The notes under the pieces: model-generated
Told to the model about the DNA's origin: nothing
The model's database searches: none
Seen by the model: the letters and a program-made list of their open reading frames with translations, nothing else
Translations under genes and position numbers: made by a program
Shown: in pieces, positions 2,856 through 21,075 of the stretch
How the letters are laid out: every line of letters starts with the position of its first letter
How positions within the stretch are numbered: the first letter of the stretch is position 1
Source: a virus
IMG/VR virus record: IMGVR_UViG_3300031862_000769
Location: 1 to 22,339 of that record
DNA: 22,339 nucleotides
Reading direction: 5' to 3' (one strand)

Positions 2856-4512
2856 AGTAACGCCGGCCTCCCGACCGGCTGATGCCAACATCGCGGCAAC
2901 TCGTGGGCGGCAAATCCCGGCCGGCAAGACCCACGATGCGGCCAGGGGGGCGCCGGCGCAACGGGCATCCGGCGTTGCCGCCGAGACGGCGGCGCTACAC
3001 CTGCTGCCCTACCAGCGCCGCTGGGTGGCGGACAACTCGCCACTCAAGATCGTCGTCAAGGCGCGTCAGATTGGTTACTCCTTCGCCGCCACACTGCGCG
3101 CCGTTCTGGAGTGCCTCAAAAGGAAGACCACCTGGATCTTTCTCTCCAAGGGCGAGCGCCAGTCGCGTCTGCTGATGGAGAAGGTGCAGGAGCACATCCA
3201 CTCCTGTGGGATCATCGCCCAGGCTTGCGAGTCCACGTTCTTTGAGGGCACGCTCATCAAGCAGCTCGAGACGCGCTTCCCCAACGGTTCGGTCATCTAC
3301 GGCCTGCCCGCCAACCCCGACACGGCCCGGGGCTACTCCGGCCATGTGACTTTGGACGAGTTCGCCTTCCATGCCGACGCCGACAAGATCTACTCCGCGC
3401 TCTTTCCTACCGTCACGCGCGGCTACAGCCTGGAAGTGATCTCCACACCCAATGGGCAGCAAGGAAAGTTCTACGAACTCGCCAAAGCCGCCGGGCTCAC
3501 TGAAGCAGATCTGAAATTTGAAATCTCAAATTCCGCCCGCCCTGGCGGGCGGACGTGGTCGGCACATGCCTGCGACATCTACGCGGCGGAACGGCAGGGC
3601 CTGAAAATCGATCTCCAGCTCCTGCGCGCGGGTTGTGACGACGAATCTTCCTGGCAACAAGAGTATTGCTGCCAGTTCGTCTCCACGGCTGAGAACTTCA
3701 TCCCGCCTGACCTCCTCACCCCCGCCCTCAGCGCCGAGGCTAGTATGGATACTCCCCTCCCCATGCTGGCCTCGGCGCCCCGCCCTCCCTCACCCCCGGC
3801 CCCTCTCCCGCTAGGAGAGGGTGTCCCGCAGGGCCGGGTGAGGGGCGAAGCGGCAGCGTCCGAGTTCTACTTGGGCATCGACATCGGCCGCCACCATGAC
3901 CGCACGGTGTTTTGGCTGGATGAAGTCGCGCCGCCGCCCGCGGCGGCGGAATTCAGAACTCAGAATTCAGAATTGTCAATTTCCGTCACGCGTTTAGTCC
4001 GCACTTTGGAAAAGACGCCGTTTGCCGAGCAACTGGCAATGGCGCGCGAACTCCTTTCGCTCGCGGGGCCGGACGGGGGCGCGCTCATCCGCCGCGCCTG
4101 CATTGACGCGACCGGCATGGGCGCCCCGCTAGCCGAATCCCTCGCGCGCGAATTTGGCCCACGCGTGGAGCCCGTAACCTTCAGCGCCGCCGTGAAGGAA
4201 GACTTGGCTTATCGCACCAAGCGGCGCCTGGAAAGCCGCCTCTCGCTTTTGCCCGACACGCGCGAGATTCGCCGCGCCTTCAGCGCCGTCAAGCGGATGG
4301 TAACAGTGACGGGCAGCCTGCGCTTTGACGCCGAGCGCACGGAAGCCGGTCATGCCGACGAATTCTGGGCCAAAGCGTTGGCCGACCTCGCGGCGGATTA
4401 CCGGCCCGTGGCGCGGCTGGCCGACGGGTTTCTGGTGGAGGGCACGCCGATCATCGCCCCGGCCGCGTTCGTCGAGGTGGACACAGCCTGGGCCGCACTA
4501 GGGTCTTTGTAG
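2836..4512 (+). CDS. Terminase large subunit (Mu gp28-like ATPase/nuclease)
   Basis: The packaging motor. The start at 2836 is chosen because AGGAAG (2824-2829) precedes it; the frame stays open further upstream but in shadow sequence. This gives 558 residues. The ATPase part has a Mu-type Walker A, KARQIGYS (75-82), Walker B VTLDE (171-175, D174/E175 catalytic) and the coupling motif STPNG (203-207). The RNase H-like nuclease part has acidic residues D349 (GIDIG), D424 (CIDATG) and D508 (DEFWAKAL). Three low-complexity stretches come from in-frame repeat cassettes: about residues 225-240, 316-339 and 371-381. The first two lie around the ATPase/nuclease linker and the third in the nuclease domain. 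The TAG stop lies inside a fourth repeat, so the C-terminus may have been cut short. Motifs are intact, so the enzyme could be functional. Confidence 0.9.
   Translation: MRSRKGKVTPASRPADANIAATRGRQIPAGKTHDAARGAPAQRASGVAAETAALHLLPYQRRWVADNSPLKIVVKARQIGYSFAATLRAVLECLKRKTTWIFLSKGERQSRLLMEKVQEHIHSCGIIAQACESTFFEGTLIKQLETRFPNGSVIYGLPANPDTARGYSGHVTLDEFAFHADADKIYSALFPTVTRGYSLEVISTPNGQQGKFYELAKAAGLTEADLKFEISNSARPGGRTWSAHACDIYAAERQGLKIDLQLLRAGCDDESSWQQEYCCQFVSTAENFIPPDLLTPALSAEASMDTPLPMLASAPRPPSPPAPLPLGEGVPQGRVRGEAAASEFYLGIDIGRHHDRTVFWLDEVAPPPAAAEFRTQNSELSISVTRLVRTLEKTPFAEQLAMARELLSLAGPDGGALIRRACIDATGMGAPLAESLAREFGPRVEPVTFSAAVKEDLAYRTKRRLESRLSLLPDTREIRRAFSAVKRMVTVTGSLRFDAERTEAGHADEFWAKALADLAADYRPVARLADGFLVEGTPIIAPAAFVEVDTAWAALGSL
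3508..3552 (+). repeat. In-frame AAATTTGAAATCTC run plus GC palindrome in terminase
   Basis: CAGATCTGAAATTTGAAATC-type sequence is joined to a perfect 20-base palindrome-like unit CCGCCCGCCCTGGCGGGCGG (3533-3552). It is translated in frame as about KFEISNSARPGGRTW, between the ATPase coupling motif and the nuclease domain. Confidence 0.7.
3783..3850 (+). repeat. In-frame CCTCACCC...GGGTGAGG repeat in terminase
   Basis: Nested inverted repeat: CCTCACCCCCGGCCC (about 3788-3802) with GGGCCGGGTGAGG (3831-3843), and an inner CCTCTCCC/GGAGAGG stem. It encodes a Pro/Gly-rich linker (SPPAPLPLGEGVPQGRVRGE). From memory, this palindrome family is widespread in bacterial intergenic DNA and is often translated into similar peptides. 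Confidence 0.75.
3946..3978 (+). repeat. In-frame AATTCAGAATTC repeat in terminase nuclease domain
   Basis: A run of GAATTCAGAACTCAGAATTC-type sequence encodes EFRTQNSEL within the nuclease domain, between D349 and D424. Similar words recur at about 11280-11312 and 16290-16392. Confidence 0.7.
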
Positions 4513-7998: not shown

Positions 7999-8288
7999 AA
8001 GCAGGATTTAGGATCTAGGAGCTGGCTAAATCCTGAATGCTAGATCCTCGGCCCTGATTATTTCCGCGGGCCGGTCCCGAGGGGTCAGCCTCCGGGATAC
8101 TTCGCCCCGCTTGCAGTCGAGCGACCTGCTGACGGGTCTCCGCGTCCTTAGCTGTCAGCGGTCAGCAGTCAGCTTTCAGCAAGTAGCTCTTGGCTGACGG
8201 CTGATGGCTGACGGCTGGTAACCCCGCGCGCGGAGCGCTGCTTGTAAGCGGCATATAGGGGCGGGCCTTGTGCCTGCCCTTGTAGGAG
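7999..8288 (+). repeat. Large intergenic repeat block before the capsid gene
   Basis: The 298-base gap contains three distinct cassettes: GGATTTAGGATCTAGGAGCT with the partner TAAATCCTGAATGCTAGATC (about 8005-8047); a 7-nt periodic GTCAGCN/GGCTGAN hairpin (about 8151-8219); and TAGGGGCGGGCCTTGTGCCT followed by GCCCTTGTAGGAG (about 8257-8288), whose end provides the Shine-Dalgarno AGGAG (8284-8288) of the capsid gene. Between them (about 8050-8150) I see GC-rich sequence with no gene. A promoter could be hidden here but none is recognisable. Confidence 0.75.
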
Positions 8289-9232: not shown

Positions 9233-9238
9233 ACGGAG

Positions 9239-9333
9239 CGATCAGCTTTCAGTGGTCAGCTATCAGTGAACAGTTCGTGGCTGACCGCTGATGGCTGACG
9301 GTCTGTAGGGGCGGGTTTGAAACCCGCCCCTAC
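9239..9333 (+). repeat. GTCAGC/GCTGAC hairpin plus perfect 14-bp palindrome
   Basis: The first part (9240-9302) is a 7-nt periodic set of ATCAGCT/GTCAGCT words, followed by the complementary GGCTGAC/CGCTGAT words. The second is GTAGGGGCGGGTTT (9305-9318) with its exact reverse complement AAACCCGCCCCTAC (9320-9333) and a single-base centre. A GAGGA ribosome binding site for the next gene follows directly. Confidence 0.85.
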
Positions 9334-11202: not shown

Positions 11203-11312
11203 GCAGGGGTCAGAAGGAATTTTGAATTGTGAATTATGAAAGAAGAACGCGCCGATGGAGAGGAAACGTGAAGAGCGAAAAATTCAGAATTCATAATTCA
11301 GCATTCAGAATT
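11203..11312 (+). repeat. AATTGTGAATTATGAA / AATTCAGAATTC cassette spanning a start region
   Basis: GAATTTTGAATTGTGAATTA (11218-11237) is matched by AAATTCAGAATTCATAATTC (11279 onward) and a further AGCATTCAGAATTG. The second half is translated as the N-region of the next gene's signal peptide. The ribosome binding site GGAGAGGA and GTG 11268 lie between the two halves. Confidence 0.7.
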
Positions 11313-13817
11313 GCCTTTTTGCTGGCTTGTGTCTTCTGTCTTCCGGCTTCGTCATACGCCGCCACGCACGTTACCGCCTCGTTCGATTTGGGACAGAACC
11401 CGCGCGTCATGGCCACCATCAATGGCACGCCCATGTACGGACTGGTGTTCGCCCAACGGAACCGGCCCGTCACATACAACGGCGTCGAGTACAGAGCTGC
11501 GCTGATCAAAGGCTACCTCAACGCGAGCGGCCAACTGAACGATGGCGAAGGGAACGCCTGGCTCGATCTGATCCCCAACCTCACGGCGACGCCTGCCGGC
11601 ACGTACTACGTGGTGACACTGAATATCCAGGGCCGCGTACACTCGGAAATCTGGGTGGTCCCGGACCAACCCACGGTCAACGCCCAGCTCTGTCGCCAGG
11701 CGGAACCGCCCTCGGCCACCGTCCCGGCCCTCTTCTATCAGTTCCTCCAACGGGATGGCGCCGACCTCGCCCAGCGCCCCAAGTTGAACCTCACCGGCCC
11801 CGGCGTGAACTGTGCCGACAACTCCGGACAGCTCCGAACCGACTGTACTTTTTCTGGTGGGGAATCGGTGCCTCGCGCCTCGGCGACAGCTTCCGGTAGC
11901 GTCAAGACCGATTCGACGGCTGCTGACCCCGTTGTCTATCTCCAGTCGAGCACTGATTCCCTGCTCGCCGGAAAAGCCAGTTCCATCCACACGCATCCTG
12001 AAAGCGACGTCACCAACCTGATTGCGGACCTGTATGGGAAGGCGCCGGTAGTACACACCCACGCCGGGTCGGAGGTCACCAATCTGGTCTCAGACCTTGC
12101 GGCCAAGGTGCCGGCAACACGGACCATCTCCACCTCTGCGCCGCTTACCGGTGGCGGCCCGCTTTCTTCCGACCTCCTGCTTTCCATGCCTCACGCGAGC
12201 GGCGGGCAAAGCGGCTACCTCTCGTCGGTGGATTGGACGGCCTTCAACGGCAAGGAGAACGTCCTCACGTTCACCTCGCCCCTGTCGCGCCCGGTGAACA
12301 CCATTTCGTGTCCCAACTGCGTCACGAATGTTCCGGGCAGCGCGCCGATCAGCTCGAGTGGTGGAACCACGCCGTCCATCTCCATCGCCACCGCCACAGC
12401 TTCCGCGATCGGCGCCGGCAACGTGGCTGGCACGGCAAACGAAATCAGCGTCAGCTACGCAGGCGGTACAGGGACGCTCTCCATCGCGCCCACCTTTGAC
12501 CTGAGCGGCAAGACTGCCACCGCACCCGTGAAGGCTACTACCATAGCTGGCGCTCCCACTTCCTGCTTAGCCAACAAGGAGCTACTGATCCAGACGGACG
12601 CCTCGCCAGCGGGCCAGCAACTCTTCCTCTGCAACGCGACCGGAAACGGCTGGAACAAGGTGGGTGACGGCGGTGGTGGGGGAGGCGGCGGGGACAACAT
12701 CTCCGTGAATGGCGCCGCTGCCGCGGACGCGAATTTCAGCGACTCGACGCCGGCGCCTCCGGCCAATGCGCTCAACATCAAGTGGCAGAAAGCCAGCTCA
12801 ACGCCGAACAACCTTTCAGCTTACGTTCCTTACTCTTCCCCTTTGAATGTCTCTTCGGGAAACCTGACAGTCGGCGCCAATACCCTCACTGCGACGCACC
12901 TCGACGAAACCGAAGCCTTCGACTTCACGGGCACCTTGGGGCTACCGCGCAAATCCGATCCCTCTTCGCCGGTGGTGGGAGAGGTTTGGATCAACGGCGC
13001 CGAGCTCAAGTTCCGAGACAATCAGGGCGTCCCCGCCACCCAGGTCGTCGAGCGTCAAGCAAACAAAAGCCCAGCGAACGGGTACGCTTCCCTAGACGCT
13101 AGTAGCTTGGTGCCCAACAATCAGCTTCCGTCCCTCTCAGGCACAGGCGGATGTACGAACCAGTTTGTCCGCACCCTCAACGACAAGGCGGCCCCGGCCT
13201 GCGCGACCGTCACCTCGGGCGACGCCGATTCGACCCTCGAGAAAACGGCCAACAAAAACGGCGCCAACGGCTACGCTGGTCTTGACGCCTCCAGCAAGCT
13301 CACCGCTGCGCAAGGCCAGGAGGTGTGGGCGCTCACCGACCTCTCCGATGTCGCCATCACTTCGCCCGCCCTCGCGCAGGTGATCCGCTACAACGGCACC
13401 TCCTGGGTCAACGCCAGCCTGGCCTGCGCGGACATCACCAACTGCCCTTCGCTGGTCGCTTCGGGAACGGCAGGGACTGGCCCTTCCAAAGTCGGGACGG
13501 CCTCGACCGCCGCCCGCAGCGACCACGACCACCGCTCCATCCATGACGACGGAAGCGGCGTGACGGAAGGCAGCGGGCGCAACCGGACCCTCGACTACGA
13601 CGGCGCCACCAGCGGCAGCGACGGTGACACCTACCTCTCCTTCACCGAAACCCTCTCCTTCAGCGCCGACTCCAACAACGCGCCCGCTCAGCCATTCACC
13701 AGCGAGTTTTTTTCTCCCAGCTTTTTCGCAAAAGCGATCTTCGCGTGGCCAGGCGATCCCGGAACCCCGCGCCGCCTGGCCGAGGCATGGAATATCGGAG
13801 GTAACAATGTCGAGTAA
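11268..13817 (+). CDS. Fibre-like protein with Sec signal peptide
   Basis: Start GTG 11268 follows GGAGAGGA; ATG 11229 in repeat DNA is the alternative. The 849-residue product begins with a credible Sec signal peptide: basic n-region, hydrophobic AFLLACVFCLPAS, and an Ala-X-Ala-like site SYA|A at about residue 31. Next comes a beta-rich domain (about 32-195, including TYYVVTLNIQGRVHSEIWVV). A long Ser/Thr/Gly-rich fibre follows, with motifs common in tail fibres: SAPLTGGGPLSSD, GYLSSVDWTAFNGKE, two copies of ANGYAxLDASS and WALTDLSDVAI. HxH motifs occur at H241/H243, H263/H265 and H753/H755. A poly-Gly linker lies near 466-475. The gene lies inside the head/tail operon and overlaps the tail-tube start by 11 bases. 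A signal peptide is odd for an assembled tail protein. Confidence 0.65.
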   Translation: MKSEKFRIHNSAFRIAFLLACVFCLPASSYAATHVTASFDLGQNPRVMATINGTPMYGLVFAQRNRPVTYNGVEYRAALIKGYLNASGQLNDGEGNAWLDLIPNLTATPAGTYYVVTLNIQGRVHSEIWVVPDQPTVNAQLCRQAEPPSATVPALFYQFLQRDGADLAQRPKLNLTGPGVNCADNSGQLRTDCTFSGGESVPRASATASGSVKTDSTAADPVVYLQSSTDSLLAGKASSIHTHPESDVTNLIADLYGKAPVVHTHAGSEVTNLVSDLAAKVPATRTISTSAPLTGGGPLSSDLLLSMPHASGGQSGYLSSVDWTAFNGKENVLTFTSPLSRPVNTISCPNCVTNVPGSAPISSSGGTTPSISIATATASAIGAGNVAGTANEISVSYAGGTGTLSIAPTFDLSGKTATAPVKATTIAGAPTSCLANKELLIQTDASPAGQQLFLCNATGNGWNKVGDGGGGGGGGDNISVNGAAAADANFSDSTPAPPANALNIKWQKASSTPNNLSAYVPYSSPLNVSSGNLTVGANTLTATHLDETEAFDFTGTLGLPRKSDPSSPVVGEVWINGAELKFRDNQGVPATQVVERQANKSPANGYASLDASSLVPNNQLPSLSGTGGCTNQFVRTLNDKAAPACATVTSGDADSTLEKTANKNGANGYAGLDASSKLTAAQGQEVWALTDLSDVAITSPALAQVIRYNGTSWVNASLACADITNCPSLVASGTAGTGPSKVGTASTAARSDHDHRSIHDDGSGVTEGSGRNRTLDYDGATSGSDGDTYLSFTETLSFSADSNNAPAQPFTSEFFSPSFFAKAIFAWPGDPGTPRRLAEAWNIGGNNVE

Positions 13818-14409
13818 CGTTGACGCAACCAAGATCCACCAAGGACCCGGTAAGCTCTGGCTGGATGTGACAGTGCCCGCCAACGGCAGCCGGCTGGTGA
13901 TCGATGCCGCGGGCGAGCCGACGCCAGGCACTCCCATTTTTGCTGGCGCTACGGAAGGCGCGGCCACTGTGGTCCTGTCTCCCAAGCTCGAGCAGATCGC
14001 GGCGGACCAGGTCGCCGCTCCTATCGACATCGTCATGACCGGTGAAGCGGAATCCATCGAGCTCACCTTGAAGGAATCCGACCTGGCCAAGCTCAAAAAC
14101 TTCGTCGTGCACGGCTCCTTCTCCTCGGGCACCGACACCAATCTTCCCCCGGGTTCGCAGACCTACGAGGAAATCTCCTTTGGCGGTGTCGTCTCTATCC
14201 CCAAGACTTCCGTCGCGGTGATTTCCCCCCGCCGGGATGCCGCAGGGAAGTACGTCGTCAGCCAGCTCTATCAGGCCTACCAGGCTGAGGCGATCCAGCT
14301 CCCCTTCCAGCGCGGCAAGGAGACTACCTATAAGGTGAAATTCGACGGCCTGGCCGATCCCACGCGCCCCGTGGGCGACCAGGTGGGCAAGATCTATCGG
14401 CAAACGTAA
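13807..14409 (+). CDS. Major tail tube protein
   Basis: A 200-residue, beta-rich protein; ATG 13807 is preceded by GGAGG (13798-13802) and overlaps the end of the fibre-like gene. The pattern fits tail tube proteins: N-terminal KIHQGPGKLWLDVTVPANGSRLVID, an ATEGAATVVLSPKLEQIAADQV segment typical of tube proteins that bind the neighbouring ring, TGEAESIELTLKESDLAKLKNFV, and a C-terminal YKVKFDGLADPTRPVGDQVGKIYRQ. It lies upstream of tail chaperone and tape-measure genes, the usual order. No sheath gene accompanies it, so the tail is probably non-contractile. It would polymerise around the tape measure to form the tail. Confidence 0.75.
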   Translation: MSSNVDATKIHQGPGKLWLDVTVPANGSRLVIDAAGEPTPGTPIFAGATEGAATVVLSPKLEQIAADQVAAPIDIVMTGEAESIELTLKESDLAKLKNFVVHGSFSSGTDTNLPPGSQTYEEISFGGVVSIPKTSVAVISPRRDAAGKYVVSQLYQAYQAEAIQLPFQRGKETTYKVKFDGLADPTRPVGDQVGKIYRQT

Positions 14410-15358: not shown

Positions 15359-16240
15359 ATGCCGAGCAGCTACTCGTCAGAACTCCTCATCCGCATTGGC
15401 GCGGACCCCTCCCACGCCGAGGCCAACATTCTGCGCTTCCGCCGATCCTTCTCGCGAGAGCTTGCCGCACTGGGGACCGAGCTCAAACGATGGTCTACGC
15501 AGAGCTACGACGATCTCAGCCGGATGGCCACCGCAGATAAGACTCTGCAAAACCTCGCCGCCCATTGGAAAGTCAGCTTGGCTTCGGTCAACGACGCTTT
15601 GAACCACAACCGCCAGATGGCGCAGCATTGGAAGATCGATCTGGTGGCCAATCTCGCGGAGGTTCTGAACGCCGGACGGGTTCTGGAGGCGAGCCTCGTC
15701 CGGGGCTTTCTGATTTTCGATTCGGCCCTGGGCGTCAACATCGCCAACGCCGTTATCTGGCAGAAATCGATTGGCGAAGCGTTTCGCAAGGCAGCGCTGC
15801 AGGCCGTCGGGTCGATTGCTCAGGAAGCCCTCGTGCGGGCGATATACTCCACCGCGCTGGGCTTCTATCTGCTCGCCATACAGGACTATCGCGGGGCTGC
15901 GCTGGCCTTCAAGTCCGCGGCGACCTTCGGGATCGTGGGCGGAGCGGCCGCGCTGGCAGGCCGCGCGCTCGCCGGCGCCGAAGTCCGTGAGGGTGAGCGC
16001 GGCGCGGTGGTCCGCCGGCCGGGCGCGGTAGCACCTGAGTTGATTGTCTCGGGACAAGGCGGGAAGGCCGCAGAAACTCCACCTGCCCAGAAGACCATCC
16101 AGGTGATCTTTCAAGGTTCCGTCTACGGCGGCCAAGCGGGCATTGATGAACTGGTACGCCACGTCTCCCAAGCCGTGACGGAGCGCGACGTAAATCTGGT
16201 CGCCTACACGGTGGTTCGCCAGCCGGCCACGCGCGCGTAG
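15359..16240 (+). CDS. Tape measure protein, unusually short
   Basis: A 293-residue protein after the chaperones, the fixed place of the tape measure. The N-terminus (SSELLIRIGADPSHAEANILRF) matches the common TMP opening '.elli.i.ad...a...i..f', followed by helices with regularly spaced Trp/His (LAAHWKVSLASVNDALNH, QHWKIDLVANLAEVLNA). A hydrophobic region (about 110-205, including RAIYSTALGFYLLAIQDYRGAALAFKSAATFGIVGGAAALAG) resembles TMP C-terminal membrane-active segments. Typical tape measures have 600-2000 residues; 293 would imply a very short tail. AGGGTGA precedes the ATG. No frameshift or fragment of a longer gene is visible on either side. Confidence 0.7.
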   Translation: MPSSYSSELLIRIGADPSHAEANILRFRRSFSRELAALGTELKRWSTQSYDDLSRMATADKTLQNLAAHWKVSLASVNDALNHNRQMAQHWKIDLVANLAEVLNAGRVLEASLVRGFLIFDSALGVNIANAVIWQKSIGEAFRKAALQAVGSIAQEALVRAIYSTALGFYLLAIQDYRGAALAFKSAATFGIVGGAAALAGRALAGAEVREGERGAVVRRPGAVAPELIVSGQGGKAAETPPAQKTIQVIFQGSVYGGQAGIDELVRHVSQAVTERDVNLVAYTVVRQPATRA

Positions 16241-16417: not shown

Positions 16418-16804
16418 ATGTCGAATCCCAAGATCGTTTACAACCCGGCGGGCGGGACGGAGCAGACGCTGCTCTTCGTTTTCCCTCCACGCAATCTGCC
16501 GGGATACTCCAAAGCGGCAGTCCGTCACGACAACCTTTCCACCGCGGGGATCCGTGAATGCGTGCTCGAGCGCGTTGACCAGTTCCTGGAGTTGTCGATG
16601 GACTGGATCCAGGCTGGCAACGACCTCGCGAATTGGCAAGCCTTTCTCGACCACGCGATGACGGGCGAACCTTTTGCCTATTATCCCGACGCCGATCTGC
16701 CAGCCTTCACCAACTACGTCCTCGAGGACACCGAGGCCAGGATCGAATACAAGGCGCCGGGCGCGTATTCGGTGACGCTGAAGTTGCGCCGGCACGTCGG
16801 TTAA
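16418..16804 (+). CDS. Dit-like distal tail protein candidate
   Basis: A 128-residue protein between tape measure and hub. The sequence (KIVYNPAGGTEQTLLFVFPP, RHDNLSTAGIRECVLERVDQFLELSMDWI, AFLDHAMTGEPFAYYPDADLPAFTNYVLEDTEARIEY, YSVTLKLRRHV) reads as a beta-sandwich tail protein with a central helix, like short distal-tail or tail-tip adaptor proteins that connect the tube to the hub. The place between tape measure and hub supports this. There is no Shine-Dalgarno before the ATG, only repeat DNA (TGACTACTC), so either translation is coupled to upstream genes or the start is atypical. No alternative in-frame ATG or GTG at the N-terminus looks better. Confidence 0.55.
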   Translation: MSNPKIVYNPAGGTEQTLLFVFPPRNLPGYSKAAVRHDNLSTAGIRECVLERVDQFLELSMDWIQAGNDLANWQAFLDHAMTGEPFAYYPDADLPAFTNYVLEDTEARIEYKAPGAYSVTLKLRRHVG

Positions 16805-17097: not shown

Positions 17098-20000
17098 ATG
17101 GCTGAAGTCGGCACGTTCTTTCCGGGGGATTTGGCGACGGCGCTCGACTCCGCGCTGGAGTGGATGCTCTCCAGGCTGAATGCCAGTTGTGCCCCCTTCG
17201 TAGGCAATGCGCTGCTGACGCCCTCTGACCCGGCATTCGTGGAAGGCGCGATCAACTCCACCGAGACAACCTACTCGCAACTCGCGCAGGAGCGCCAGCC
17301 CAGCATCGTCTTCGATCCCGTCTTCGGTCTGCCACTCGACGATCAAGCGGGACCGGATGGCTTCCCCATCAATTACTCCAGCGCGCCTCTGCTCTCGGGA
17401 AATCTAATAGCGAACGTGCTCCATCTCACTCAGGTCACGGATGTGAGTGGCCGTGTCTTCGACCTCCTCGATCCTCCCGGCCAGTATCGCGTGGATGTCT
17501 ACTCCCGCACCGACACCTTCTACTACCAAGGTTCTTCTTCGCTTTCGCCGGACAACACCTGGAAAGTCACAGGCGTCCATGTGGGAACGGCGCTTGCCTT
17601 CCTGATGCCTGCCACGTCGCCACAGCCCGAGCTGGGTTCCTCGACCCCGGCTGTTACCGGCTGGATCGCGTATTCCAATCTCGGCGTCGGTAATCGGCTG
17701 CGAGACTATTTCGTGCGGGTCTACGCGAAGACGGATATCGAGTACCTGCAAGAGGACAACATCCCCATCGTCGTGCAGGACTCGCGCCATGCCCGCTATG
17801 GGACCAACAAGGTCATCCAGAGCGGGACGCCCGTGGCGCACGTCATCTACAACCACCCGCAGTTGGGGCCGCTCGATCTCTATTCCACCCTGCAGAACCT
17901 GGCGGTGTTTTCTGATTTGCCGCGGTCGATCGAAGTGCCGCCGGGCGATCCCGACTACGCCAACCCCGGCACGCTGGTCAGCTCCAATGTCGCTTATGTC
18001 CAAAACCGCGGCTGGATCTACGACGCGGCGCTCGCCATCATCACCTTCTCCTTGGCGGGGCTCTGGGATGCGGCGAAGCGCATCATCGTGCGCCTGAACG
18101 CGCTCCGCGACTCACCGGGTTATCTCCCTTCGCTGGTACTCGAGAATGCTGAGGACGGCTCCGTGAATCGCTGGGCGCTCGCCGGCGGATCGGGCAGCAT
18201 CGCGAACGTTTTCGACTCCACCGAGCCACCCGCGCAGTCAGGCGGTTCCAACGTCATCCTCTTCACTGCCACCACCGCCCCGGCAAGCTGGAACTTCACC
18301 GGCAGCGGCCTGCCGGACTCGGCGGATTCCATCGTCGACTGGCGCTTCAAAACCGCCGTCGCCTTCAAGTTCATCGTCGGCGTCACCAGCTCCACGGGCG
18401 GGGTCATGAGTATTGAATTTGTTTCGAGTGGCACCGCAGGCTACGACCCCGTCGCGAAGAAAATCAGCGCGCCAGTCACCTGGACAGCCAACCAGTGGCG
18501 CGTGCTGAATCAAGAACTCAACAGCCTGATCGGGCAGTACGTGCCCGGCGAGACGCTGCTCTCCATCGCTTCCTTCAAGGCCGAGGTCGATGAGGCGGGA
18601 GAGCTGCGTCTGGATAACCTTTCCGTGGGCGCGCCGCAGCCCGCCGGCAGCCTTAGTTTTTCCTACGACGTCTACAACGGGCAGGTTGACCAGGCGTACA
18701 TCCGCTCCGGCGCTCAGGCCTGGGTCGCCTACGCTTACGGCATCTACATGGAGCGGACGGGCGACTTCCGCTCTGCCGCGCTCGGCCTCCAGAGCATGTT
18801 GAATTGTCTCTTCTCGCTGCAATCGACCGCCGCCGATCTTCGCCAGAACTTGATTCTGGGCGGCTGGGGAAGATACCAAGACCCCGGCTATCAATACGTC
18901 CCCGGCCAACTCCCCTGGGTCTCCACCGAACACAACATCGACTGCTATTTCGCTTTCGACAAAGCTTCGCGCGTATTGCCCACGGCTGCCCAGAACCTCT
19001 TTCAACGCGGCTGGATCTCGCAAGCGCAGTTCGACGCGCTCAAGACGACGGCCACCACGGCTGGCCAGAAGGCCACGCAAGTCAGAACGGCAACCGTCAA
19101 TCAGCTTTGGATTCCTGCTTCCGGCGGCACGAAAGGCCACTTTGCTCAGGGCGCTAGTGCCTCCGGCCTAGATACTTCCCTGGCGCTCGACGCCGCGGGA
19201 ACTTGGGCGGCCCTCTTCTACCACGAGGTTGGCGAGGAAACCAAGGCCGTCGAATGCCTGGAATTCGTCTACGAAGAATTCTTCCTCACCAACCGCCAGA
19301 TCCTCAAGAGTAGCCAGCCGGACTCCTTCAACCAGGCTTACGAGCAGTTGACGCCCTTTGACGGATTCCAACCCTACGCGGATTCCCCAGGCGGCTATTC
19401 CGGCTCGCCCGAGTCCATCTGGACAGAGGGCACCTGGGCCGCCCTGGCAGCCTATCTGCGTCTATACCAGAACTTCAACTTGCGAGACTATTTCGCGGCC
19501 CACTACCCAGGTGGGCTCGATGCTTTTCTCGCGCGTCTCGTGCAAAGCATGAAAACCGCCGGCACGACCACCGGCCACCGCGGCCTGCTGGCATTTTCCC
19601 TGGCGGCGCGACGTCTGCCCTGGGAATTTTCCGTGCGCATGACGCTCGCGGCCACGGCTTGGTTCTGGATCACCGCCACGCGCAACGACATCCTGTTCAG
19701 CATCACGTCCGACGCCCTGCTTGGCCGCCCTTACCTTAAGGTTCCACAGGGCGTTCAGCAGGTGATCAGGCAATTGGAAGGACAGGGTTCCATCGGAGCC
19801 CTGGAACTGGAAACCATCGATGCGGCGGGTTACATAACTGCTCTCGCGAGCGGCGGGCGCCTCGAGGGTCGCAAGGTAACCCTGAAAGTCGGTTACCCCG
19901 GAATGGCTTCCACCGACTTTGTCACCCTGGCAACCCAGCAGGTTGAGTCCGTCCAGGCCCTACCAGATTCGACGGGATACGTGCTCGAGTGCCGAGACCT

Positions 20001-21075
20001 GAAGCGCAGCGCCAAAACGAAGATCTTCACGCGCGGTGATGATGGGTTCTTCACCTCCCAAGATCACCCCCGCTCACTTCTGGCCAACCCCATAGACTGT
20101 GCGTTGGTCGTTTTTCAGAACGAACTCGGGCTGGGCCAAGTGCCCTTTCTTCCCGAATCTTCTTGGAAGCTCTACGACCCCACCCAGTGGGACCCTGCGG
20201 CCACTAACAATCCCACCTTGATTGACCCCAACCCTTACGTCGATGTCGAGAGGTTCCTCACCTACAGGAATGGAATGTTTGCAGGTTACCTGCTCGAGTT
20301 CGAGTTCCAGCAGCCTGTGGAAGCCAAGCAGTTTCTGGAGTATGAGCTCTTCCGGGCACTGGGAGGATACTTGCTGGTCCTCCCGGATGGCCGTCTCTCG
20401 CCCCGGTTCTTCTTCCCGCCCTTTGCGTTCCCGAACCTCTTTGAGTTCAACGAACGTAACATGACCGTACTCCCCGGGGTAGAGCGCCATCCCATCATCA
20501 ACCAGGTGACCTACCGGCTCGATTATGACGGTAGCAATTTCCAAACGGAGCTGCTCTTCCTCTGCGCGCCTTCGCTTCAGCAGTACGGGCTGGCCGGTCA
20601 ACACACCATCGAGTCAAAAGGGCTGCGCGTGGCGCGCGGCGGGGCGTCGTTGGCCGCGCTCACCGCCACGCGCATTTTCCGTCGCTACGCGGGCCTGAAC
20701 CCCGTGACGGGTGTGCCCAACGGCGGCGCGGCCATCCTGAGGGTCACCAGCCACTTCCTCACCTTAACCGTGGAGGTCGGAGACTACGTCCTCGTTTCCC
20801 ACCCACTTGTCCCCGACTTCGAAACCGGCAGGCGCGGCGTGTACAACCGGCTCTTCGAGGTCATTGAAAAGCAGCCAAACTACTCGGAAGGGACCATGAC
20901 TTACCGCCTCCTCGATGCCGCCTGGACGAGAACCAAGAAGCTTTCGCGGATCGCTCCGCAGGGCACACCCTCTTATCCCAGCGCGTCAGAATACGAGCGC
21001 GCGCGGTACATGTTCGTGTGCGCAGATTCGACGAGGACGTATTCCAACGGAAGCGCAGGCAAAACGATTTGGTAG
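17098..21075 (+). CDS. Tail hub with glycosidase-like and jelly-roll modules
   Basis: A 1325-residue multidomain tail-tip protein; GGAG precedes ATG 17098. In order: about 1-100 unknown; about 105-290 beta-rich, with YRVDVYSRTDTFYYQGSSS and DYFVRVYAKTDIEYLQEDN; about 300-345 the start of an (alpha/alpha)6-barrel-like domain (NRGWIYDAALAIITFSLAG, D309); about 346-512 a jelly-roll, carbohydrate-binding-module-like insertion (NAEDGSVNRWAL...DEAGELRLDNLSVG); about 518-875 the barrel continues (YNGQVDQAYIRSGAQAW, STEHNIDCYFAF with E611 and D615, WTEGTWAALAAY with E777, FSVRMTLAATAWFW); 881-1325 the hub domain (KVPQGVQQVIRQLEG, GSIGALELETID, GRKVTLKVGYPGM). Barrel plus binding module suggests glycan degradation at the tail tip. 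The catalytic role is inferred. The TAG stop lies in a repeat. Confidence 0.7.
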   Translation: MAEVGTFFPGDLATALDSALEWMLSRLNASCAPFVGNALLTPSDPAFVEGAINSTETTYSQLAQERQPSIVFDPVFGLPLDDQAGPDGFPINYSSAPLLSGNLIANVLHLTQVTDVSGRVFDLLDPPGQYRVDVYSRTDTFYYQGSSSLSPDNTWKVTGVHVGTALAFLMPATSPQPELGSSTPAVTGWIAYSNLGVGNRLRDYFVRVYAKTDIEYLQEDNIPIVVQDSRHARYGTNKVIQSGTPVAHVIYNHPQLGPLDLYSTLQNLAVFSDLPRSIEVPPGDPDYANPGTLVSSNVAYVQNRGWIYDAALAIITFSLAGLWDAAKRIIVRLNALRDSPGYLPSLVLENAEDGSVNRWALAGGSGSIANVFDSTEPPAQSGGSNVILFTATTAPASWNFTGSGLPDSADSIVDWRFKTAVAFKFIVGVTSSTGGVMSIEFVSSGTAGYDPVAKKISAPVTWTANQWRVLNQELNSLIGQYVPGETLLSIASFKAEVDEAGELRLDNLSVGAPQPAGSLSFSYDVYNGQVDQAYIRSGAQAWVAYAYGIYMERTGDFRSAALGLQSMLNCLFSLQSTAADLRQNLILGGWGRYQDPGYQYVPGQLPWVSTEHNIDCYFAFDKASRVLPTAAQNLFQRGWISQAQFDALKTTATTAGQKATQVRTATVNQLWIPASGGTKGHFAQGASASGLDTSLALDAAGTWAALFYHEVGEETKAVECLEFVYEEFFLTNRQILKSSQPDSFNQAYEQLTPFDGFQPYADSPGGYSGSPESIWTEGTWAALAAYLRLYQNFNLRDYFAAHYPGGLDAFLARLVQSMKTAGTTTGHRGLLAFSLAARRLPWEFSVRMTLAATAWFWITATRNDILFSITSDALLGRPYLKVPQGVQQVIRQLEGQGSIGALELETIDAAGYITALASGGRLEGRKVTLKVGYPGMASTDFVTLATQQVESVQALPDSTGYVLECRDLKRSAKTKIFTRGDDGFFTSQDHPRSLLANPIDCALVVFQNELGLGQVPFLPESSWKLYDPTQWDPAATNNPTLIDPNPYVDVERFLTYRNGMFAGYLLEFEFQQPVEAKQFLEYELFRALGGYLLVLPDGRLSPRFFFPPFAFPNLFEFNERNMTVLPGVERHPIINQVTYRLDYDGSNFQTELLFLCAPSLQQYGLAGQHTIESKGLRVARGGASLAALTATRIFRRYAGLNPVTGVPNGGAAILRVTSHFLTLTVEVGDYVLVSHPLVPDFETGRRGVYNRLFEVIEKQPNYSEGTMTYRLLDAAWTRTKKLSRIAPQGTPSYPSASEYERARYMFVCADSTRTYSNGSAGKTIW

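Follow-up and report, generated by a model that had tools for sequence, protein, structure and literature searches.

What does a glycosidase-like barrel do at the tip of a phage tail? The question is raised by the viral record IMGVR_UViG_3300031862_000769 of IMG/VR, analysed over its whole length of 22,339 nucleotides (the window), in which one open reading frame (ORF) had been predicted to encode a tail hub protein that carries an (alpha/alpha)-barrel glycosidase-like domain. We consider it reasonably probable that the 1325-residue product serves as central tail hub in a siphovirus-like Acidobacteriota phage or prophage with a short tail, and that it has an (alpha/alpha)6 carbohydrate-active arm that binds and probably cuts a surface glycan. 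Sequence comparison and modelling established the gene, its fold, an insert, the hub fold, the conserved residues and the gene order. The toroid-hub fusion and the fold are well supported, and an enzyme activity is what we infer. The gene and its parts are listed below, with the confidence of the AlphaFold2 model given as the predicted local distance difference test (pLDDT).

17098..21075, plus strand: hub-toroid fusion gene, 1325 aa; open, intact ORF
17098..17448, plus strand: N-terminal region, aa 1-117; conserved start YYPGDF..TL.WL.SRQ, length variable beyond it (alignment of 20 relatives)
17449..17994, plus strand: beta-rich region, aa 118-299, preceding the toroid; pLDDT about 46-89
17995..18120, plus strand: predicted toroid hairpin 1, aa 300-341; helices 307-320 and 323-338, with Y308 and D309; pLDDT about 72-89
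18121..18639, plus strand: inserted beta-sandwich resembling a carbohydrate-binding module (CBM), aa 342-514; pLDDT mostly 86-97
18640..19707, plus strand: predicted toroid hairpins 2-6, aa 515-870; most blocks at pLDDT 87-98
18928..18942, plus strand: STEHNID motif, E611-H612-N-I-D615, at the N-terminus of the third inner helix
19189..19206, plus strand: D698 to W703, at the N-terminus of the fourth inner helix; both residues 31/31
19420..19431, plus strand: W775-T-E777-G778, at the N-terminus of the fifth inner helix; E777, G778 and W775 31/31
19738..21072, plus strand: predicted baseplate hub domain, Mu gp44 / T4 gp27-like, aa 881-1325; mean pLDDT 70, Foldseek matches

The ORF and every motif quoted in the original prediction were present where it had placed them. 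Its domain boundaries were nearly right: the modelled toroid comprises residues 300-341 plus 515-870, and the gap that had been left between 345 and 518 holds a beta-sandwich (342-514) that had gone unreported. The structure model gave an (alpha/alpha)6 toroid where a barrel had been expected, with no sign of a non-barrel fold. The hub domain placed at 881-1325, directly after the toroid, was borne out by models and fold matches, and the T4 gp27/siphovirus-type hub fold, for which structure prediction had been proposed as the check, was found for this C-terminal part. Ahead of the toroid, the alignment of relatives shows a conserved KTDIEYLQEDNIPI motif within the beta-rich region.

The middle part of the protein (residues 112-882) was modelled with AlphaFold2 from 39 sequences, with a mean pLDDT of 83.5 and most blocks of the toroid at 86-98. 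Modelled helices span residues 307-320, 323-338, 537-554, 561-573, 610-636 and 642-670, followed by 697-710, 714-728, 776-788, 793-802, 806-822 and 850-862. Six of them are inner helices, starting at 307, 537, 610, 697, 776 and 850, and five are outer partners; a sixth outer helix was not seen up to the end of the modelled stretch. With high confidence, residues 300-341 and 515-870 are thus predicted to form an (alpha/alpha)6 toroid. When the model was compared with the PDB using Foldseek, D-glucuronyl C5-epimerases came first for the toroid part (E 4e-11), followed by the glycoside hydrolase (GH) family GH78 rhamnosidase, GH94, GH116, GH125 and 2-epimerase, and all the families listed are (alpha/alpha)6 carbohydrate enzymes. 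In a viral structure library the best match was F9VHN7 (E 4e-16), whose 585 residues equal the length of TMA_030 of a Thermus phage. Two additional relatives (L017 and L019) carry an extra insertion of about 66 residues in the toroid, immediately before residue 679.

Between toroid hairpins 1 and 2, the model places a CBM-like beta-sandwich at residues 342-514, which matched CBM11 structures (6r31, E 1.4e-5; 1v0a, E 3.6e-5) as well as axonemal FAP20-like domains and sandwich domains of phage tailspikes. Because the latter two match too, we treat sugar binding by this insert as putative. In the secreted proteins, too, a sandwich stands ahead of the toroid, but a comparison of it with the insert did not support shared ancestry (hhalign 0.07%).

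The toroid has what appears to be an intact active-site ring. We compared 31 rows (24 phage and 7 cellular) and kept a column if at least 30 rows agreed, which left 13 conserved columns: Y308, D309, G538, G589, E611, D615, G685, D698, W703, W775, E777, G778 and W855. Residues Y308, E611, D698, W703, W775, E777 and G778 were identical in 31/31 rows, and D309 and D615 in 30/31, the exceptions being D309G in L001 and D615S in the Coprococcus phage; in addition, W775S occurs in L017 and L019, which lie outside the 31-row set. All four acids named in the original prediction (D309, E611, D615 and E777) were therefore conserved, and D698 is a fifth that it had overlooked. Acids (p = 0.002) and tryptophans (p = 0.006) were over-represented among the conserved columns. 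All five conserved acids, and none of the other 28 acids, fell within the N-terminal windows of the modelled inner helices (hypergeometric p = 4e-6), so their placement exceeds chance. Judged from these modelled N-termini, they appear to cluster at one rim. Across the tail proteins of phages from Thermus, Microbacterium, Coprococcus and Acidobacteriota, and across secreted bacterial relatives, these acids are near-invariant; read on the model, such conservation is what catalytic constraint on a pocket would be expected to leave.

The family to which such a pocket would belong was sought by profile. The (alpha/alpha)6 enzymes (glucuronyl C5-epimerase, GH78, GH94, GH116, GH125, GH127 and N-acetylglucosamine (GlcNAc) 2-epimerase) share with the toroid a common fold and the ring of conserved acids expected of such enzymes, but none gave a significant sequence or profile match. 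No Pfam family came above its cut-off for the toroid domain. In hhalign, the toroid profile reached 54% with GlcNAc 2-epimerase (186 columns), 41% with GH78, 20% with MGH1-like and 0.1% with C5-epimerase, where the C5-epimerase and GH78 profiles held three sequences each and the hub control gave at most 2.2%; GH127 reached 8%, or 20% with the cellular rows alone. For one cellular homolog there were weak matches to GH127 (E 1e-4) and, at E 0.016, to the GlcNAc 2-epimerase family, both under the curated cut-offs. By profile, the toroid would lie outside the known glycoside hydrolase families, leaning equally to epimerases and hydrolases of the superfamily. It is most likely a carbohydrate-active domain of its own family. 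A PDB match to a TetR regulator and a match to tryptophan dioxygenase were judged to be chance.

The hub assignment followed from fold and gene position. Residues 870-1325 were modelled with a mean pLDDT of 70. Foldseek matched this model to 43 structures at E <= 0.001, and those ranked highest belong to baseplate hubs or tail tips: a tail protein of Neisseria MC58 (3d37, E 3.8e-9), T5 pb3 (7zhj, 2.2e-8), Mu gp44 (1wru, 1.1e-6), the lambda tail tip (8xcg, 6.6e-6) and a gene transfer agent (6tba, 1.2e-5). Contractile injection systems and a phage tail-associated lysin were also among the matches. No sequence family was reached for this part, and a PHROGs search yielded only scattered weak matches. 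In nearly all relatives the order is an Ig-type tail protein, a 169-aa protein, a 293-aa putative tape measure, a 128-aa putative Dit, the hub, and genes of 161 and 220 residues, so that the hub gene keeps its position after the putative tape measure and Dit. Because fold and gene position agree, the assignment of residues ~881-1325 to a T4 gp27 / Mu gp44-type baseplate hub is a strong prediction. By analogy, the hub would have threefold symmetry. Mu gp44, T4 gp27, T5 pb3 and the tail-associated lysin of phage NF5 share this hub fold, and several of them are joined to enzymes. Known tail-associated lysin (Tal) proteins begin with the hub and carry the lysin behind it, whereas here the enzyme-like part stands ahead of the hub. 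No lysozyme or peptidase domain was found in the hub-toroid protein.

Full-length relatives (residues 1-1325) were found in five IMG/VR contigs at 39-74% identity and in at least 12 Acidobacteriota contigs at 38-69% identity. These contigs and soil viruses are where the relatives occur; a second scan yielded more of them, and partial or frame-broken copies are also present. In L021, L024 and L039 the hub gene is split into two frames, by sequencing error or decay. Judging from the relatives, the host is probably a member of the Acidobacteriota, a phylum that is abundant in soil and has few known phages.

The toroid also occurs on its own, in the Thermus phages phiYS40 and TMA (TMA_030), in Microbacterium phages (Zooman gp69 and RubyRalph gp42, labelled minor tail protein in RubyRalph and SadLad), in the Coprococcus phage NatCom_10489, where its gene lies two genes past the tape measure gene, and in further viral contigs. 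These free-standing proteins share the toroid and its conserved residues, but they are encoded by a separate gene with other domains ahead, and they lack both the hub domain and the CBM-like insert that are joined in the present protein. The hub profile was absent from the other toroid phages examined, and when viral contigs were scanned once more, with the Microbacterium protein as query, there were no hits. In L040 the toroid lies within a long fibre-like protein. This wide spread of the toroid as a free or fibre-borne module had escaped the original prediction. A 1458-aa viral protein (L046:2500-6873) carries a phosphodiesterase/hydrolase domain at 492-814 and the toroid at 1166-1450, and is possibly a two-enzyme tail protein.

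Cellular homologs were searched for in Acidobacteriota, where proteins of 483-742 aa carry the toroid and, judged by eye from their signal-like N-termini, are secreted. Among these putatively secreted proteins (L063, L070, L064, L104, L066, L108 and L109), several have a beta-sandwich-like region ahead of the toroid. No Pfam family exceeded its cut-off in the two that were scanned, and the group has the look of a carbohydrate-active family that has yet to be named.

A tree of the toroid split phage from cellular rows with full support and placed the hub-fused rows in one clade (99/100). All 33 hub ORFs that were tested contain the CBM-like insert, which no other toroid protein has, so fusion and insert would most simply be a single event in the Acidobacteriota phage lineage, and the toroid itself, on this comparison, an old tail module. 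It is about an even call whether the toroid is an undescribed polysaccharide-active enzyme family that, as an old module in tail proteins of phages of Acidobacteriota, Deinococcota, Actinomycetota and Bacillota and kin to secreted bacterial proteins, was once made the catalytic arm of an Acidobacteriota phage hub.

We propose that the C-terminal 445 residues close the tail tube beneath a small Dit-like ring, where three copies would be expected from the hub homologs, their N-terminal arms pointing outward. The N-terminal two thirds would be a peripheral arm, in which a beta-rich linker is followed by the toroid, with the CBM-like sandwich inserted after the first hairpin. The pocket, lined by D309, E611, D615, D698 and E777 together with the conserved tryptophans, may be an acid/base site. 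During the approach to the outer membrane the insert would hold a polysaccharide chain and the pocket would cleave it, the substrate being a surface polysaccharide such as exopolysaccharide, capsule or O-antigen. With pocket and insert on the hub, the glycan layer would be bound, and probably cut, at the site of DNA ejection. A polysaccharide substrate, and hydrolysis rather than epimerisation or mere binding, is what we suppose. The toroid next to a phosphodiesterase/hydrolase domain in L046 and the related tail proteins of Microbacterium and Coprococcus phages count as support for this proposal.

Several points weigh against it. Neither the protein by itself nor profiles found a usable sequence match in Pfam, NCBIfam or PDB, and similarity to known (alpha/alpha)6 families by profile appears weak, below certainty. 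We know of no member of the toroid family with a known activity. The proximity of the acids to one another is modelled from helix positions, not distances, and the confidence of the hub model is moderate. Foldseek TM-scores were low, at 0.19-0.26 over the whole multi-domain model (771 residues), because the query has several domains and the domain orders differ; the fold argument is carried by the E-values and the consistent fold class, not by these scores. The analogous TIM-barrel domain of the megatron, the tail protein compared below, has no known function (PMC13420450).

The toroid could instead be a lectin-like, carbohydrate-binding pseudo-enzyme, which has kept the glycosidase fold and pocket and serves as an adsorption arm of the hub. 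The CBM-like insert that accompanies it fits this explanation, as do the several oligosaccharide-binding sites of other baseplates (PMC7296036). Four residues (R536, Q684, L697 and Y767) are fixed in phage rows versus cellular ones, and H612 and D692 are mostly so, which could mean a changed role. All five acids are retained over a very deep divergence that spans phage and secreted bacterial proteins, more than pure binding would demand, and we regard a pseudo-enzyme as unlikely.

Less likely still is an enzyme other than a hydrolase, that is, an epimerase or lyase on the side of the 2-epimerases and C5-epimerases that modifies a receptor glycan. Glucuronyl C5-epimerases were the best structure matches and GlcNAc 2-epimerase the best profile match, and as a lead only, the 2-epimerase alignment places STEHNID on the S-x-GH-x-x-E motif, which we take to hold the catalytic histidine of that family. 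However, the 54% match over 186 columns is weak, and H612, the residue in question, is present in 24/24 phage rows but in 4/7 cellular rows, with G in the other 3/7. The structures of GH78, GH94, GH116 and GH125 match as well, and a 2-epimerase works on sugar ends, which would be a strange job for a tail. That the C-terminal part is no hub and the protein an ordinary tail fibre or spike bearing a depolymerase is very improbable, for although PHROGs labels the toroid families 'tail fiber protein' and the hub part has a pLDDT of only 70 and no sequence family match, its 43 structure matches are headed by hubs and tail-tip proteins of many systems, and in nearly all relatives its gene is the sole large one separating the Dit-like gene from the small tail genes downstream.

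A glycan hydrolase built into the hub had been thought unusual, and this part of the original prediction is weakened by the megatron. In the gene transfer agent RcGTA, the megatron has an adhesin-like domain (47-229), a peripheral domain (230-744) and a central domain (745-984) (PMC7296036). In roseophage R4C, the peripheral domain (212-481 and 630-903) has a carbohydrate-binding domain (482-629) in between (PMC10276861), much as the toroid is split by its insert, and a preprint describes the peripheral domain as a TIM barrel of unknown function (PMC13420450). Both megatrons share with the present protein a similar size and the order of parts, from an N-terminal region through an adhesin-like or beta region, to which aa 118-299 are comparable in position, and a glycosidase-like peripheral fold to a gp27-type central domain. 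The peripheral fold is a TIM barrel in the megatron and an (alpha/alpha)6 toroid here. Moreover, in the megatron a separate hub protein shares the hub role and the C-terminus binds fibres, whereas the present protein matches a whole gp44-type hub and ends there. Sequence homology to the megatron was absent, with no Pfam match at E <= 1. The present protein thus appears megatron-like in layout, yet not a megatron. Since a glycosidase fold beside the hub is not unprecedented, we narrow the claim: what is new is the toroid in the hub-side position and an unnamed, widespread toroid family with conserved acids.

If the arm cuts polysaccharide, the tool would reside in the DNA-delivery hub and not on a separate spike, and the layout shared with the TIM-barrel megatron suggests that unrelated glycosidase folds were recruited twice beside the DNA exit. 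To our knowledge, the search for phage depolymerases has been confined almost wholly to spikes with a beta-helix or propeller fold. Tail enzymes would gain a new, testable class from a conserved toroid family whose candidate catalytic residues are clear, and the role of a glycosidase-like arm at the hub becomes accessible to experiment. In the DepoScope study, 11 of the 984 phage proteins that had polysaccharide-degrading folds showed an alpha/alpha toroid, which belongs to the same broad class of fold, and the DepoScope model omits it for want of examples (PMC11326577).

The rest of the window holds a head and tail block with terminase, a Mu/P23-45-type portal, a Mu-I-type protease, major head protein, neck protein and an Ig-domain tail protein. 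The tail genes ahead of the hub, in which the tape measure and Dit identities are inferred from position, are as follows.

13807..14409, plus strand (ATG at 13807): putative major tail protein with an Ig-type domain; phrog_2175, E 3.8e-9; relatives 43-86% identical
15359..16240, plus strand: short helical protein, 293 aa, putative tape measure, by position and conserved order
16418..16804, plus strand: 128-aa putative small distal tail (Dit-like) protein, preceding the hub gene

The 293-aa protein found no match in family searches; it is the sole tape-measure candidate and, if it truly is one, the tail would be very short. An 862-aa protein with a phage tail repeat (11229-13817) is encoded after the neck genes and before the major tail protein, an odd location for a fibre; among the relatives this protein was detected in L001, L010, L032 and L034 only. 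Imperfect GTCAGC/TCAGC-rich repeats, which resemble bacterial intergenic repeats, lie on either side of the major head protein gene (8136-8228 and 9237-9301). The terminase frame contains a low-complexity stretch, PRPPSPPAPLPLGEGVPQGRVRGEA, at ~3780-3865, which looks like an in-frame inserted repeat element, and a tRNA-Pro gene (anticodon AGG, 2065-2137) lies immediately ahead of the terminase genes.

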